A stretch of 64,000 nt of DNA. It comes from Pseudomonadota bacterium (GTDB lineage: Bacteria > Pseudomonadota > Gammaproteobacteria > Acidiferrobacterales > UBA6901). Below, piece after piece: positions 20,393-27,713 of this stretch. The notes beneath the pieces are model-generated. The model was given only the letters and a program-made list of their open reading frames with translations. It had not been told where the DNA came from and searched no databases. How positions within the stretch are numbered: the stretch's first letter is position 1; each line of letters begins with the position of its first letter. A program made the translations under genes and the position numbers. The stretch lies in contig JAKASJ010000004.1 of assembly GCA_021819085.1 (NCBI GenBank), forward strand, positions 76,728 through 140,727, given 5' to 3'.

Positions 20393-21767
20393 GCAGCATC
20401 AATCAGTTATGCAGGACAATTCAGGCAGAACATCAATCTCTGGCAAGAACCGTTACGTCGAGACGAGAAGAAGAACGGCGCATGCGGCCTGCGCATGAAC
20501 GCAGTCCAGGTAATTATAATTCTGGCGTTTCAGGATTGGGGGCAAGCGGGATATCCGGGATAGAGATCGAGGTTATCACGCGGTGTTTCTTAACTTCGCA
20601 TAATGTATATTATGTTAAATAATGGTCGGCACAGGGTCCCCACGTGCGGGATGTTTCCGAACTTCATTGGCAACCGGTGGTTCTGTCGTCCGCCGGCGAC
20701 CCCGGCAACACACCTGAGTGTTTGTGCTCCGCGTAATCATTAACACCTAATCTATCTATTACTACAATTTTCCGCTGTGACTGATGTACTCGTTGTGTGG
20801 ATGCAACCCGAGGGGCAGCCTTGCATGTACGATATGAATGGCGATTACCCAGGGATCCAGGATCTTGCCGCTCGTCCGGTTCAATGAGCCAATAAGCGAA
20901 TTTATTTACTCGTCGCGGACGTCAAGGATCTGGCGCTCGGCTACACTCGCTATACAGCGGTAACGGAGGAACGCAGAGGCGTCGTAAGGGCAAGTCCTCA
21001 TCTGACTTGGCGGACGCATATTGGCCATATCCGGTCGTGGAAGTGGCTGAATTGTCGACGATGAGTCTGGAAATGAGAGAGGCGACGCGATCTTGCCGGC
21101 GCATGCAACAGAAGTCCGGTAGGTACGGATCGCCCTGGGTATAGGCCGTGATCCTGCTTCTGGCATCACGCCCTGTTTCGCCCGACTACCGGATTCATTA
21201 ATTAAAATAAGTTCGTCTCCCATGATCAGTCGAAAACACTTTAACTCAAATCGCATATCGTATTCATTACAAAGTAATTTCAATCGGATCTTGGACAGAC
21301 TCGGCAGCCTGTCTATGCCCGGGCGGCCGTCATGATCGTCTGCTACAGGCTATACTTCCCTGAAAGGGTCATTAGATTTAAAGCTGATCCAGGATCCTGC
21401 CGGATGCCATTCGGACAGCGATTCACCGCCCAGGGAGCGCAGTCGTGATGTACGGTGTTTTGAACTCATATGGCATGGGGAATTCCGTAACGGCCGTGCC
21501 GTTGACATTCACCCAGATCGATCGCGTGGCACGCCGTTCTCTGCCGAGCAGAAAGGGCTGTGCGGTAATCGCCCGTCGTATTATGAGTCTCTTCTTATGA
21601 GCCTCATCGCGGGTTTTCAAGCTCCTACGCCACCGGATTCGGCGCACCGCGGATCCATCACGGCAGTTTCAGCGTTCCTGGACTCGCCGCCCGCACCGCG
21701 CGGTTCCGGGCCAGGCCACGCGACGCATGGAACTCATGCAAGAGCGCTATGCGGACCGGCGTCGGGG

Positions 21768-22181
21768 ATGCAGCACGGGTTCAGCCTGATCGAGCTTGTG
21801 GTCGTGATGGCCATCGTGGTGATTCTGGCCATCATCACTATTCCCTCTTACCGGCGCTACATCATGAAGTCCGATATCCAGACAGCACAGGCGGCTATGA
21901 TGTCGATGGCAAACGATCTGCGCCAGTACGCACAGGATCGTGAGACCTATGTGGGCGGGTGCCCCGTGACTCCGCCGCCCACCGAGGATTTCACGCTGTC
22001 CTGCCCGACGCTGACAGCGACAACGTATACGATCCAGGCCACAGGCACTGGCAGCCTGAGCGGGTTCACGTTCACGCTCGATCAGAACGGCGACCGGTCG
22101 ACGACTAACGTGGCGTCCGGATGGACGTCAAACAGTACGTGCTGGATTTCGGATCCTCAGGGCGATTGTGCGGTGGAATAG
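21768..22181 (+). CDS. pilE: Type IV pilin, PilE-like
   Basis: Prepilin motif MQHGFSLIELVVVMAIVVILAIITIPSYRRYIMKSDI. Confidence 0.85.
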   Translation: MQHGFSLIELVVVMAIVVILAIITIPSYRRYIMKSDIQTAQAAMMSMANDLRQYAQDRETYVGGCPVTPPPTEDFTLSCPTLTATTYTIQATGTGSLSGFTFTLDQNGDRSTTNVASGWTSNSTCWISDPQGDCAVE

Positions 22182-22185
22182 ACCG

Positions 22186-22656
22186 ATGCGGCAGACAGGC
22201 TTCACACTTCTTGAACTGATCGTGACGATCGCGGTGGCCGCGATCATCCTGGCACTGGGCGTGCCCTCGTTTCTTTCCTCGATCCGTCACCAGCAGGTCG
22301 TTTCGGTGACGGAGAATTTCGAGCAGGACGTTGCCTGGGTACGCGGCCAGGCGATTTCGGGCGCGAGCACGGCGACGCTGACGCTCGCGACTGACTGTTC
22401 GTGGGTGGCCAGCACCGGCTCGCCTGCTGCGGATGCGCAGCACTCCATGAGCGCGGCGCAGCTCGCCACGGATTCCCCCGGGATCACCTGTCAGAACGTG
22501 CCGGGCGGAGGTCTGCTATTGAGTTTCGACAATCTGGGACTGGTCCAGTCGACGACCACGAATACCATCACGTTTGCACCGAGCCCCGGCCTGCCGGTCA
22601 GTATCGAAGTGTTCGGCTCCGGGGCGATCGTGGAGGACCCGCAGCATGTGTCCTAG
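22186..22656 (+). CDS. fimT: GspH/FimT-family minor pseudopilin
   Basis: MRQTGFTLLELIVTIAVAAIILALGVPSFLSSI prepilin motif; position in minor-pilin cluster. Confidence 0.8.
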   Translation: MRQTGFTLLELIVTIAVAAIILALGVPSFLSSIRHQQVVSVTENFEQDVAWVRGQAISGASTATLTLATDCSWVASTGSPAADAQHSMSAAQLATDSPGITCQNVPGGGLLLSFDNLGLVQSTTTNTITFAPSPGLPVSIEVFGSGAIVEDPQHVS

Positions 22657-23092
22657 CCGTGCTGTCCGGCGCCAGAGCGGAATCGGGCTGATCGATGTGC
22701 TCGTGGCCATGCTGGTGTTTTCGCTGGGTCTCCTCGGCCTGGCGGCCCTCTATGTGCGCGCCGCCCCTGCCCCGCTGCAGAACATGGATGCGATGGCGGT
22801 GCAGACTGCTGCCGACAGCTTCATGGCAGCGCTCGCGACGGAGACGTCCAGCCTGCCGCTAAACGCATCGAGCGTCACGAGTCCCTCCGGCATGCCCACG
22901 ACACCTCTGCAGCAATGGTTCAGCCAGACGGTACAGAATCTGCCGGGACTGACCGTAACCGTAGTCAGCGGCAATGATGCGCTGGGCAATCCCTGTTCGA
23001 CTTTAAGCTGCGGTATTGACCTAACCCTGGGCTGGACCCAGTTCGGCTCGCTGCGCACACAGGAATTTTATGGACAAATCGGAATCCACTGA
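22646..23092 (+). CDS. pilV: Type IV pilus modification/minor pilin PilV
   Basis: RRQSGIGLIDVLVAMLVFSLGLLGLAALYVRA; overlaps fimT end and pilW start. Confidence 0.8.
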   Translation: MCPSRAVRRQSGIGLIDVLVAMLVFSLGLLGLAALYVRAAPAPLQNMDAMAVQTAADSFMAALATETSSLPLNASSVTSPSGMPTTPLQQWFSQTVQNLPGLTVTVVSGNDALGNPCSTLSCGIDLTLGWTQFGSLRTQEFYGQIGIH

Positions 23093-24332
23093 GCGCGGGC
23101 TGACGCTGATCGAACTGATGGTGTCGCTGGCAGTTGCCACGATCCTGGGGCTCGCGATCCTGGGTGTGATCACGTATGGGGCGGCCCGGGACCGGGCCAG
23201 CAGCAATGCCACCGATCTCAACGACAACGCCCGCGCCGCCCTGACGCTGCTCACCCGGGATGTGGCAAGCGCCGGATTCATGTTCGGCGCAGCGCAGTCG
23301 CAGTGCGCCATAACCCTGTCCTACGACGGCGGTTTCCCCTCCGGCTATGTGCCGATGAACCCGATCTGGACGGTGCCGCAGGCGGCAGGACAGACCCTGC
23401 CCATGGGCGGTTCGCCCATACCGTCCACGAGTGGTGCGATCGAGAATTACCCGGCCAGCACAAACACCAATGCCGCGGGTGTCGCGCAGGTGCTGCTGAT
23501 ATCCTCAGCGCCGTCCGTGAGTACCTATATCGCGCAGACTTCAGCACCGATCTATATCGTGCAGTTCGGCACCACACAGTCGAGCAGCGGGGGCGGCGCG
23601 ATCTCCAGTACCCAGCTGCCGGTGTCCACGCTGCAGCTCAACAGTACCACGGGCATCAGTCAGGGTGACACGGCGTTCCTGCAGGTGCCGATGAATGGGG
23701 GCAACGTCTGCATGCGAATCCCCATCGTCAACATCGGGACAGCGACCGGGGGCGGCGCGACCTACATCGACAGCAAGCCGTCCAGCTATATGCCGCCAAA
23801 CGGCTACAGTGATTTTGCGTCGCAGATTCCCTCAAGCTACGGAACCCTGACCAACAGCAACCTGCTGCACTCCCGCATTCTCGATCTCGGCCAGACTGCG
23901 GACACGCTTGAGATCATTCAGTACTGGATCGACGATAGCCAGGGGTTCCCGGTGCTCTGGCGTGCCACCTACAGTGCGCTCACCGATGCGATGATTCAAT
24001 CCGAAGCGCTCGCCCCCGGCGTGGTGAGCCTGCAGGTGCTGTTTGACACCGTGCCGAAAGGTTCCCCAACGGGGACGCCGCTCACATGGAAGTCGTGGCC
24101 GGACGTGGCATCGACCGACCAGATCGTCACCGCCGACGTGGCCATCGTCGCGCGCAGTCTGCACTCCGATCCCGCGTACACGGCGCCCGCAACCATCGTG
24201 GTACCACAGCCGGCCTCGGGTCTCGTCTCCCCGGATGCATTCGTCAACTACGTGCCGCAGACCAACGAGGTCCACGACCACTTTTCCGTCTACACGGCGC
24301 AGCTCGCACTGCGCAATCTGACATGGAACTGA
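23070..24332 (+). CDS. pilW: Minor pilin PilW
   Basis: ERGLTLIELMVSLAVATILGLAILGVITYGA...ARAALTLLTRDVASAGFMFG. Confidence 0.8.
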   Translation: MDKSESTERGLTLIELMVSLAVATILGLAILGVITYGAARDRASSNATDLNDNARAALTLLTRDVASAGFMFGAAQSQCAITLSYDGGFPSGYVPMNPIWTVPQAAGQTLPMGGSPIPSTSGAIENYPASTNTNAAGVAQVLLISSAPSVSTYIAQTSAPIYIVQFGTTQSSSGGGAISSTQLPVSTLQLNSTTGISQGDTAFLQVPMNGGNVCMRIPIVNIGTATGGGATYIDSKPSSYMPPNGYSDFASQIPSSYGTLTNSNLLHSRILDLGQTADTLEIIQYWIDDSQGFPVLWRATYSALTDAMIQSEALAPGVVSLQVLFDTVPKGSPTGTPLTWKSWPDVASTDQIVTADVAIVARSLHSDPAYTAPATIVVPQPASGLVSPDAFVNYVPQTNEVHDHFSVYTAQLALRNLTWN

Positions 24333-24892
24333 GCATGCAGAAATTGTCCCTTCGGCGGCAGCGCGGCTCCGCGCTGCTCTTCGCGCTGGTCGCCCTGCTG
24401 CTGGTATTTCTCGGCGCAATATTCACCTTGCGCGGCGTGCTGACGGACAGCGGGCTGACCGACCGTTTCTCGGAGCGCCAGAAGGACGTCCAGGCGAGCG
24501 ACCTGGCGCTGCAGTGGATTGCGAACCAGATTGCTCTTCTCGGCACCACGCAGGCGCTGGAGATATCGGCGACCGGCCAGACGTGGTACCTGAGCTCACC
24601 GCCGGTACCGCCGCTGCCGATTGGCTGGCCACTGCCGGCTTACTGGCAAACTTGCTCCAGTTCCAGCACCCGGACCAGCACTGACACCTGTGCCCAGGTA
24701 CCGATGCCGGCCCATGTGCCGCAGTCGGCCCTGGTCTTCGTGGAACCGACCGGGCGGGTCGATCCCTATGCCTGCAACACCCAGGGATTGACCGCAATCT
24801 ATTACGACGTATGGATCCATACGACTGACGCGCGCGGCGGGGTTTCTGCCGATACCGAATCACTGTACAAGCTCTGCGTACTCAGCGGCTGA
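24323..24892 (+). CDS. pilX: Minor pilin PilX-like
   Basis: RQRGSALLFALVALLLVFLGAIFTLRGVLTDSGLTDRFSERQKDVQASDLALQW; overlaps pilW end. Confidence 0.75.
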   Translation: MELSMQKLSLRRQRGSALLFALVALLLVFLGAIFTLRGVLTDSGLTDRFSERQKDVQASDLALQWIANQIALLGTTQALEISATGQTWYLSSPPVPPLPIGWPLPAYWQTCSSSSTRTSTDTCAQVPMPAHVPQSALVFVEPTGRVDPYACNTQGLTAIYYDVWIHTTDARGGVSADTESLYKLCVLSG

Positions 24893-24893
24893 G

Positions 24894-27713
24894 GTGGTTA
24901 TGAATAACTCAAGAAAAATCCGGGATCACGTCATCGGGCCGTGGCTGGCGGTGGTCATCACCTTCGGCCTGATGCCATTGACGGCGTTCGCACAAACAAA
25001 CATCATCCAGGATGACTTCACGGGCTCGTCGGCGATGCTCAACTGGGTTCCCGCAGGCACCCTCAACGGCGTCGTCGGCAACTGGACTCCCTGTCTCACG
25101 GCCGGCAACAACACCGGCTCGATCCCCGGCTGCAACCTCAGTACTCCGGATCCCGTGGGATCCGGGGCGCTGCGCCTGACCAATAACGCGACCAACGAGG
25201 CGGGGGTGATCATGTCGAACTTCACCTATCCGTCCAGCCAGGGGATCCAGGTCACCTTCACGACGTATACCTACGGCGGCAACGGATACACAAACTATAA
25301 CAGTATTCAATCAGGCGCGGACGGCATTGCCTTTTATCTTCTTGACGGGACTCAGGCTCCCAACGTCGGCGCCTTCGGCGGCAGCCTCGGATACAGCTGC
25401 TCCAACACGAATTCTCCCTACAACGGTATGGCTGGCGCCTACATGGGGCTCGGTATCGATGAATACGGGAATTTCCTCAACCAAAGCGACAACACGGCCA
25501 CCGGCATCAACGGCCACGCGAACCCCGGAGAAATCGGCCTGCGCGGCTATGGCAACGTCAACATGGCGGCGCTTCAGGCCATCAATCCCAATGAAAATAA
25601 CCCGAGCGATGTGCAAACTGTCTGCAAAAACGGCGGCACCTATACCTACATGGTGAATGGCGAGCAGCAATCCACGACGCTCCCGGATTACGCCATGATC
25701 CCGGGCGCTTACAAGATCCTTCCTTCGAATGAACCGATCTTCAGTCAGGAAAACAGTTCATCGCCCTCGCGCGCGAAGGCGACACCCATCACCTACAAGC
25801 TGGTCATCTCGCCCACCGGGCTGTTGAGTTTCTGGTACAACTACAACAACACGGGATTCCAGAGCGTCATCTCGCAGCAAAGCATCTCGGCGTCGAATGG
25901 CCCGATGCCGGGCAGCTTTCGCTTCGGATTCGGTGCTTCCAGCGGCGGCGGTTCCAATTACCATGAGATCACCTGCTTTACTGCCAGCCCCGCAAACAGT
26001 TCGGTCGGCGCCCCGGTCGCGCCCCTGTCGATTACCTCCGGCAATTTCATCTACATGCTGACGAGCGGGCTCGATCCCATCGCCGGGCACGCCGATGCTT
26101 ACGCGGTGTCCGCGAACGGGACGCCGTCCACGACGGCCGCCTGGGATGCCGCTGCGGAAATGAACACGACCAACCGGACGGACGATCTGTGGTCGACGGC
26201 ATCCGACAATACGACCCCGGTCCTGTTTACCGCGCTCGACAGCGCCGCCTTCGCGCTGACGCCGACGACCTGCGTTCCCAATACCGGCACGATCATCGAC
26301 TACACGATCGACCCGAGCTACCCCACACCCTCCAACTGTCCAAGCTACCTTGACGGGCGTCAATCCGGCTGGTATCTGGGGGAATTCTCGTCGGACGATG
26401 CCGGCGGGCTGCTCACGCCGCCTAATAATCCGCTGGACCTGACGCTTCCCGGTTACGTGACCTTTTCCCAGAGCGAGTCCACCCGCGCGGATGCACTGTT
26501 GTTCACGAACAACGACGGCTTCCTCTATTCTGTCAATGCGCAGACCGGGGCCCTGAACTGGGGCTGGATGCCCAGGGCGTTCGTTTCCCAGCTGCAGAAC
26601 TACACGGTCATCCCCACGGATTCCCCGGGCCTGCTGGACGGCAACTTCTCCACGGTCGATGCCGTCGACGCATCGGGAAGCTGGGCCACCTATGTCATCG
26701 GCTCGGCCGAAGGCGGCGCCTACTGGTATGACCTCAAGCTCAACAGCAGCGGCGCTCCCGGTGCAGTGATCCCGGCGCCCGCCGTCCCCGCCGGGGCGAC
26801 CTATCCGCAGCGTCAGGCGCCCGTGGTTGCGAACGTACCGGTCGCCACGACCGTAAACGGCCAGAATGTCACGCAGGTCCAGCAAATTGCCGCGTTTGTG
26901 GCGAACACAGGCTCCGGCAGCTCAGCCACGAGCACCTTGTATGAATTCAACGTGGCAACCGGAAGCACAAACTCCTACGCAATCTCGATCGGCCACAGCG
27001 GCATGATCGCCGCGCAGGTGTCGAGCAACCTGTTTTTCGATGCCGCTTCGCAGCAGCTGTATTTCGGAGATTCAGCAGGGAATGTCTACGTCATGCCCAT
27101 CACGGACAACGCCCAGTCCGACGTCGGCAACATTGCGTCGCTCGGGACCACGAAAGACGGGCTGCCGATCGAGTTTCTGGGCTTCCAGCAGGAGAACACC
27201 GCGCCGTATCTTTGGGCCGCGTCGCAAAGCGGGATGACTGTCTTCGGAATCGGGACTGCCGGATGGCAGCCGCTGTGGGCAACCGACACTTCTGCCGGCT
27301 ATGTGTACAATTCCGCGAACAGTTCCTGGACGATCAGCAGCAGCGTCGGGTCTCTTCAGGCCACGGCCCAGATTTCGGCGATGCCGGTGGTGGTCAACAA
27401 CAGCCTGGTCGTCCCGGCGTATGTGCCGCCCTCGGCATCCGCCGCGAGCTGCGGTATCCTGGGCTCGGGTTATTACGATTTCTTCAACCTCACGACTGGA
27501 AGTTTCCCGACAAATACGATCATGGGTTCGAATGGCAGCTATCTCACGGGCGATGAATATATCGGCGTCGGAGTCGCTTATTCACCGACGGTATCGATTT
27601 CGAGCACCGGATTGCCGGTACTCGGCGGGACCCAGCAGACGGTTACACCCACTGCACCGCTCGTGTTTTCAAAAGCCGGGGTGAATGCCGTGGTCCAGTG
27701 GCGCGTGCACTGA
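24894..27713 (+). CDS. PilY1-like pilus tip protein with N-terminal L-type-lectin-like domain
   Basis: Signal peptide; GADGIAFYLLDGTQ...GGSLGYS...GAYMGLGIDEYGNF lectin-like motifs; C-terminal half LLFTNNDGFLYSVNAQTGALNWGWMP and terminal AVVQWRVH as in PilY1 propellers; follows pilX. Confidence 0.75.
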   Translation: MVMNNSRKIRDHVIGPWLAVVITFGLMPLTAFAQTNIIQDDFTGSSAMLNWVPAGTLNGVVGNWTPCLTAGNNTGSIPGCNLSTPDPVGSGALRLTNNATNEAGVIMSNFTYPSSQGIQVTFTTYTYGGNGYTNYNSIQSGADGIAFYLLDGTQAPNVGAFGGSLGYSCSNTNSPYNGMAGAYMGLGIDEYGNFLNQSDNTATGINGHANPGEIGLRGYGNVNMAALQAINPNENNPSDVQTVCKNGGTYTYMVNGEQQSTTLPDYAMIPGAYKILPSNEPIFSQENSSSPSRAKATPITYKLVISPTGLLSFWYNYNNTGFQSVISQQSISASNGPMPGSFRFGFGASSGGGSNYHEITCFTASPANSSVGAPVAPLSITSGNFIYMLTSGLDPIAGHADAYAVSANGTPSTTAAWDAAAEMNTTNRTDDLWSTASDNTTPVLFTALDSAAFALTPTTCVPNTGTIIDYTIDPSYPTPSNCPSYLDGRQSGWYLGEFSSDDAGGLLTPPNNPLDLTLPGYVTFSQSESTRADALLFTNNDGFLYSVNAQTGALNWGWMPRAFVSQLQNYTVIPTDSPGLLDGNFSTVDAVDASGSWATYVIGSAEGGAYWYDLKLNSSGAPGAVIPAPAVPAGATYPQRQAPVVANVPVATTVNGQNVTQVQQIAAFVANTGSGSSATSTLYEFNVATGSTNSYAISIGHSGMIAAQVSSNLFFDAASQQLYFGDSAGNVYVMPITDNAQSDVGNIASLGTTKDGLPIEFLGFQQENTAPYLWAASQSGMTVFGIGTAGWQPLWATDTSAGYVYNSANSSWTISSSVGSLQATAQISAMPVVVNNSLVVPAYVPPSASAASCGILGSGYYDFFNLTTGSFPTNTIMGSNGSYLTGDEYIGVGVAYSPTVSISSTGLPVLGGTQQTVTPTAPLVFSKAGVNAVVQWRVH

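Follow-up and report, generated by a model that had tools for sequence, protein, structure and literature searches.

An L-type lectin head on a divergent PilY1 body: a putative glycan-binding tip protein of type IV pili in a gammaproteobacterium

Introduction

In Myxococcus xanthus, PilY1 and the minor pilins prime the assembly of type IVa pili and PilY1 is located at the pilus tip, according to two reports (PMC7541494, PMC8833165). PilY1 proteins carry different heads on a common C-terminal domain (PMC9109919, PMC13190605), and a survey of published PilY1/PilC proteins in May 2026 identified vWFA and DUF4114 as the only conserved head domains (PMC13190605). The M. xanthus protein PilY1.1, which has a DUF4114 head, is implicated in EPS-dependent motility, and a Ca site was proposed to mediate its binding to EPS (PMC9109919). 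The minor pilin PilC of S. sanguinis contains a ConA-like lectin module for which glycan binding was measured (PMC9934059).

Here we describe a PilY1-type protein with an L-type lectin head, encoded in a window of 64,000 nucleotides (the whole stretch of DNA that was analysed) from a gammaproteobacterium of the order Acidiferrobacterales. Our literature search, which covered openly accessible papers, found no paper pairing 'PilY1' with 'L-type lectin', and the sole match for 'ConA-like' together with PilY1 was the S. sanguinis paper. By that survey and this search, an L-type lectin is new as a PilY1 head next to the vWA and DUF4114 heads already known.

Results

The lectin-PilY1 gene and its operon

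The open frame spans positions 24894-27713 on the forward strand and its best start is the ATG at 24900, which lies just downstream of GAGGTGG and 7 bases past the pilX stop, giving a product of 937 amino acids (Table 1). The motifs quoted in the initial annotation (ADGIAFYLLDGTQ, LGYS, MGLGIDEYGNF and NDGFLYSVNAQTG) were all found in the translation, as was the C-terminal end VVQWRVH, and the signal peptide that it named was recognized by eye as a Sec-type N-terminus that would direct secretion. Homologues of the same architecture occur in six other contigs (44-64% identity), and dN/dS against the relative L002 was about 0.11 for the head and about 0.16 for the body, at a dS near saturation; the frame is therefore not a chance one.

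Pfam and NCBIfam returned nothing usable for the 937-residue protein, and a Calponin match (E 0.21) was rejected as chance. A single-sequence phmmer search against the PDB also found no match, and profiles alone succeeded. Since both libraries are blind to this protein, the initial annotation caught what they miss.

Table 1. Positions of the lectin-PilY1 gene features and of the upstream pilin genes in the window.
Feature	Position	Strand	Basis
pilE/ComP-like pilin	21765..22181	+	PF16732 ComP_DUS 4.2e-11, PF07963
fimT/fimU-like minor pilin	22168..22656	+	N_methyl PF07963 5.7e-7, GspH PF12019 0.002
pilV, start uncertain	22646..23092	+	TIGR02523 E 7.8e-8, below its cut-off
pilW	23070..24332	+	PF16074 PilW E 5.5e-9
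pilX-like gene	24335..24892	+	position and start MQKLSLRRQRGSALLFALVALLLV (GSALL start); no Pfam/NCBIfam match
Sec-type signal peptide, aa 1-31, cleavage after AFA	24900..24992	+	MNNSRKIRDHVIGPWLAVVITFGLMPLTAFA, by eye from translation
L-type (legume/ERGIC-53-like) lectin head, aa 32-372	24993..26015	+	profile vs PDB lectins, AlphaFold and Foldseek, conserved ADG/GGSLGY/DEYGN/HE
ADG motif, Asp141	25317..25325	+	counterpart of sugar-contacting Asp in L-type lectins; head alignments
DEYGN motif, Asp187-Asn191	25458..25472	+	counterpart of L-type lectin D-x-[FY]-x-N Ca and sugar site; motif match only
divergent PilY1 beta-propeller body, aa 373-937	26016..27710	+	profile to 3HX6, hhalign, AlphaFold propeller

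The gene closes a pilE/fimT-pilV-pilW-pilX-pilY operon and, with fimT, pilV, pilW and pilX-like genes directly upstream, it occupies the pilY1 position, as had been proposed. The same minor-pilin operon was observed in L002 and other relatives. The pilE-like ORF opens at 21597, where an N-terminal extension of about 56 residues is spurious, and from the prepilin leader the start is more likely near 21765. The window's genome encodes three PilT-family ATPases over cut-off, two of them adjacent, which is consistent with retractable pili. The bacterium also has genes of the sulfur-oxidation type; further upstream of the pilin operon lie aprB and aprA, with which the chemolithotrophy assumed in the initial annotation is compatible.

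Fold of the lectin head

Homologues of the head were gathered from six contigs, genomes of the order and one plasmid, and the row of the plasmid record was left out of the alignment used as input for structure prediction. In the PDB, the head profile matched the legume-lectin domain from M. jannaschii (7elv, E 1.2e-6) as well as pea lectin and ERGIC-53. The AlphaFold model of the head (pLDDT 74, pTM 0.77) is of medium confidence, and of low confidence around residues 164-176 and 197-203, near the expected site. Foldseek matched this model to peanut lectin (2pel, E 6e-10), to the Pterocarpus and Centrolobium lectins, to ERGIC-53 and to Emp47p, with a probability of 1.00, a TM-score normalised by target of about 0.58-0.67 and a high rmsd (5-10 A) that is probably due to insertions. 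The predicted fold, which the initial annotation had proposed to check, is a concanavalin-like sandwich; together with the profile matches to PDB lectins, this upholds its claim of an L-type-lectin-like N-terminal domain.

Neither PF18483 nor PF03388 was matched over threshold by the window protein. Relatives with the same head matched PF18483 below threshold (L092, 2.3e-8; L115, 2.6e-7; L111, 9e-7), as did a plasmid-borne lectin copy. Three related heads (L004, L005 and L006) contain an insertion of more than 100 residues that looks like a tandem duplicate of a 'YPSSL...AVQNTC..G.L.DYS' segment. On a Diaphorobacter plasmid (NZ_CP049911.1; L040:8184-9902), the lectin domain is fused to Ig-like repeats in the place of PilY1, with adjoining transposases.

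Predicted sugar and metal site

Four blocks, ADG, GGSLGY, DE[YF]GN and HE, are near-invariant in the head alignments. ADG is invariant in alignment A1, where its Asp is D110 of the domain, and is found in nine of the ten rows of alignment A5, the exception being GTG in the frameshifted G411 copy. The residues D156, E157, G159 and N160 of DEYGN (domain numbering) are likewise invariant in A1, and both ADG and GGxLGY align with 7elv in the profile match. We take ADG, GGxLG and D-x-[FY]-x-N to be the motifs that mark the sugar and Ca sites in L-type lectins. Judged by motif and not by geometry, the Asp, Gly and Asn of the sugar site are present (ADG, GGSLG and DEYGN), and the putative Ca ligands are D187 and N191, perhaps with D197. 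In our reading of GIDEYGN, the head lacks the Glu of the legume Mn site, as does ERGIC-53. At the level of sequence, the sugar- and Ca-binding residues of L-type lectins are thus kept in the head.

We regard it as unlikely that the lectin fold has been kept only as a structural or protein-binding spacer on PilY1, which would bind protein or nothing specific in the manner of sugar-inactive ConA-like domains. ConA-like folds are often reused, and the putative site of this head is surrounded by long loops that vary in sequence and were modelled with low confidence, with the large insertion in L004-L006. However, ADG, GGxLGY and DE[YF]GN rank with the best-conserved positions of the head, also when PilY1-borne copies are compared with DUF6701-borne ones (about 30% identical), a pattern that a working site would predict.

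The propeller body

The profile of the C-terminal domain gave one good match in the PDB, P. aeruginosa PilY1 (3HX6, E 5.5e-10), and hhalign aligned the window-type bodies with canonical PilY1 bodies over 517 columns (99.7%, E 1.1e-25). The AlphaFold model of the body is a propeller (pLDDT 82, pTM 0.83), for which Foldseek retrieved generic propellers, with 3HX6 absent among the best 50 matches. No PF05567 match over the curated threshold was found in the window protein or in its genome, and the wider divergent-body clade yielded a sub-threshold match alone (L093). The body is a divergent PilY1 branch that is missed by the Pfam model PF05567, and with the 3HX6 match the PilY1-like C-terminal propeller described initially holds. 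As neither a PF05567 protein nor a second PilY1 homologue was found in the window's genome, the 937-residue protein is the only PilY1 found there.

The vWA head is absent from the window protein and the lectin stands in its place, a replacement already suggested in the initial annotation and on which sequence profiles, fold prediction, synteny and relatives agree. The closest bodies with another head belong to vWA-like proteins from family f2 of the same order and to the PilY of a Comamonas fluminis plasmid that shares this minor-pilin operon. In f2, the PilY1 of one single-contig genome (G001; L036:5873-9330) is divided between two ORFs that overlap, one of 838 and one of 344 residues, by frameshift or phase variation.

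The Ca loop D-x-[DN]-x-D-x-x-x-D that precedes the YxGDxxGNxW strand is absent from that place in the divergent bodies. Its loss was considered as a special mark of this clade and rejected, as several PF05567 members lack the loop too, including those of two genomes from the window's own genus (G054 and G055).

Exchange of heads and bodies

A sample of 369 genomes of the Gammaproteobacteria was surveyed, with the lectin domain present in 12 and a match to the body profile in 115. At least four further families of this class have the lectin head on canonical PF05567 PilY1 proteins. The carriers are genomes G063, G367 and G411, the relatives of G063 (G423, G439 and G440), and G821. Three such proteins (L091, L092 and L096) have bodies with the Ca-loop motif, and a lectin head on a PF05567 body was also seen at L111 and L115. 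In G423 and G440 the gene order is fimT-pilV-pilW-pilX-lectin-PilY. The copy in G411, a one-contig genome, lies in two frames with the break within the lectin head (L096:5362-8950), and is either a pseudogene or a sequencing error.

The arrangement differs even within the genus of the window: the window and G053 have the lectin head on the divergent body, and G054 and G055 (L106 and L107) have a head that is vWA-like by eye on a canonical PF05567 body. Such a difference at the pilY locus within one genus suggests replacement of the whole cassette.

The body tree consists of two clades split at 100/100, in agreement with the division between bodies that match PF05567 and those that do not, and lectin and vWA heads occur in each. 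Forcing the lectin rows into one clade of this tree was rejected at a cost of 299 log-likelihood units and a p-AU of 2.8e-40, the exact value of which leans on the model because long branches join the two clades. The branches of the PilY1-borne lectins have no firm order in the lectin tree, and the most economical reading is at least one transfer of the lectin head, in either direction, between the two kinds of PilY1 body.

It seems improbable to us that the head serves biogenesis instead of adhesion, as it might if it held on to glycosylated pilins, periplasmic glucan or peptidoglycan while the pilus is primed. PilY1 does prime pilus assembly, and deletion of the DUF4114 head in M. xanthus gave a null phenotype (PMC9109919), but a priming role should tie the head to its body, whereas head swaps here are independent of the body, as is typical of ligand modules that face outward.

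On a mobilizable plasmid of Comamonas fluminis (NZ_CP066782.1; L039), a minor-pilin/pilY operon with the divergent type of body is present in full, and this is a route by which pilus tips may pass between species.

Related lectins on MshQ-type proteins

A related lectin occurs on DUF6701 (MshQ-type) proteins, including those of genus g26 of the same order and others elsewhere. The DUF6701 proteins with an L-type lectin in mid-protein come from several families (L033, L034, L037, L095, L097, L098 and L116, all but L037 checked with Pfam), and that of L095 has an additional LamG domain. The MSHA counterpart may also be a lectin adhesin. That the window protein is itself such an MSHA protein, or another surface protein, and not a PilY1 is extremely improbable and was rejected despite the related lectin, as the PF20419 (DUF6701) C-terminal domain was not found in it, its body matches 3HX6 and canonical PilY1, its operon is pilV-pilW-pilX, and PilY1-borne and DUF6701-borne lectins separate at 100/99 in the lectin tree.

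Discussion

The window protein is probably a PilY1-type protein at the tip of a type IVa pilus that can retract, with a lectin head that would act as a Ca-dependent glycan-binding adhesin and with heads that are exchanged as modules. The C-terminal propeller would join the FimT/PilV/PilW/PilX minor-pilin complex, prime pilus assembly and then end at the tip. The N-terminal lectin, in the place of the vWA domain, would bind a glycan in a Ca-dependent manner, which may be EPS of the cell itself or of its neighbours, LPS or a biofilm polysaccharide. Pilus retraction could then draw the cell into a surface coated with glycan or along it, and heads would move as modules between the two kinds of PilY1 body.

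Carbohydrate-directed adhesion at the tip, as proposed in the initial annotation, is the best-supported reading in view of the putative sugar and Ca residues kept by motif and of the analogy with M. xanthus PilY1.1 and S. sanguinis PilC, while nothing in the sequence supports the binding of sulfur or mineral that was suggested with it. EPS is a plausible ligand, to judge from Myxococcus PilY1.1, and EPS or biofilm polysaccharide is more likely than sulfur or mineral.

A broader picture can be drawn tentatively, with somewhat less than even confidence. At least two deeply separated propeller bodies would each take several heads (vWA, L-type lectin and DUF4114, the last of these elsewhere). Lineages would switch the tip specificity between protein and sugar types by exchange of the head alone or of the complete minor-pilin/pilY cassette, and this even within a genus; the lectin would make retraction dependent on Ca and on glycan. 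That one head is found on two distinct forms of the tip protein across the Gammaproteobacteria suggests a trade in heads by which pili alter the target of their grip. The L-type lectin head offers a concrete and testable candidate for a glycan-binding site, and the pairing of lectin and vWA heads with two bodies provides natural swaps that separate the function of the head (ligand) from that of the body (priming and retraction).

With P. aeruginosa PilY1/PilC (3HX6; PF05567) the window protein has in common the propeller body, the signal peptide and the position at the end of a fimT/pilV/pilW/pilX operon, and it differs in having a lectin and not a vWA head, a body below the PF05567 threshold and no D-x-D-x-D Ca loop. 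It resembles the L-type lectins (legume lectins, ERGIC-53 and 7elv; PF18483/PF03388) in predicted fold and in the ADG, GGxLG and D-x-[FY]-x-N motifs, although its head falls below the Pfam thresholds, has extra Cys residues and long inserts, and is fused to PilY1. The MshQ-type proteins (DUF6701, PF20419) have a homologous lectin (about 30% identical) and are putatively associated with pili, with a different C-terminal body. M. xanthus PilY1.1/PilY1.2 also have a non-vWA head, for which EPS binding at a Ca site was suggested (PMC9109919), but this is DUF4114, a different domain from the L-type lectin. Finally, S. sanguinis PilC bears a ConA-like lectin at the tip of a type IV pilus, as the window protein presumably does, whereas its lectin is galectin-like and is grafted on a minor pilin of a monoderm instead of a PilY1 propeller.
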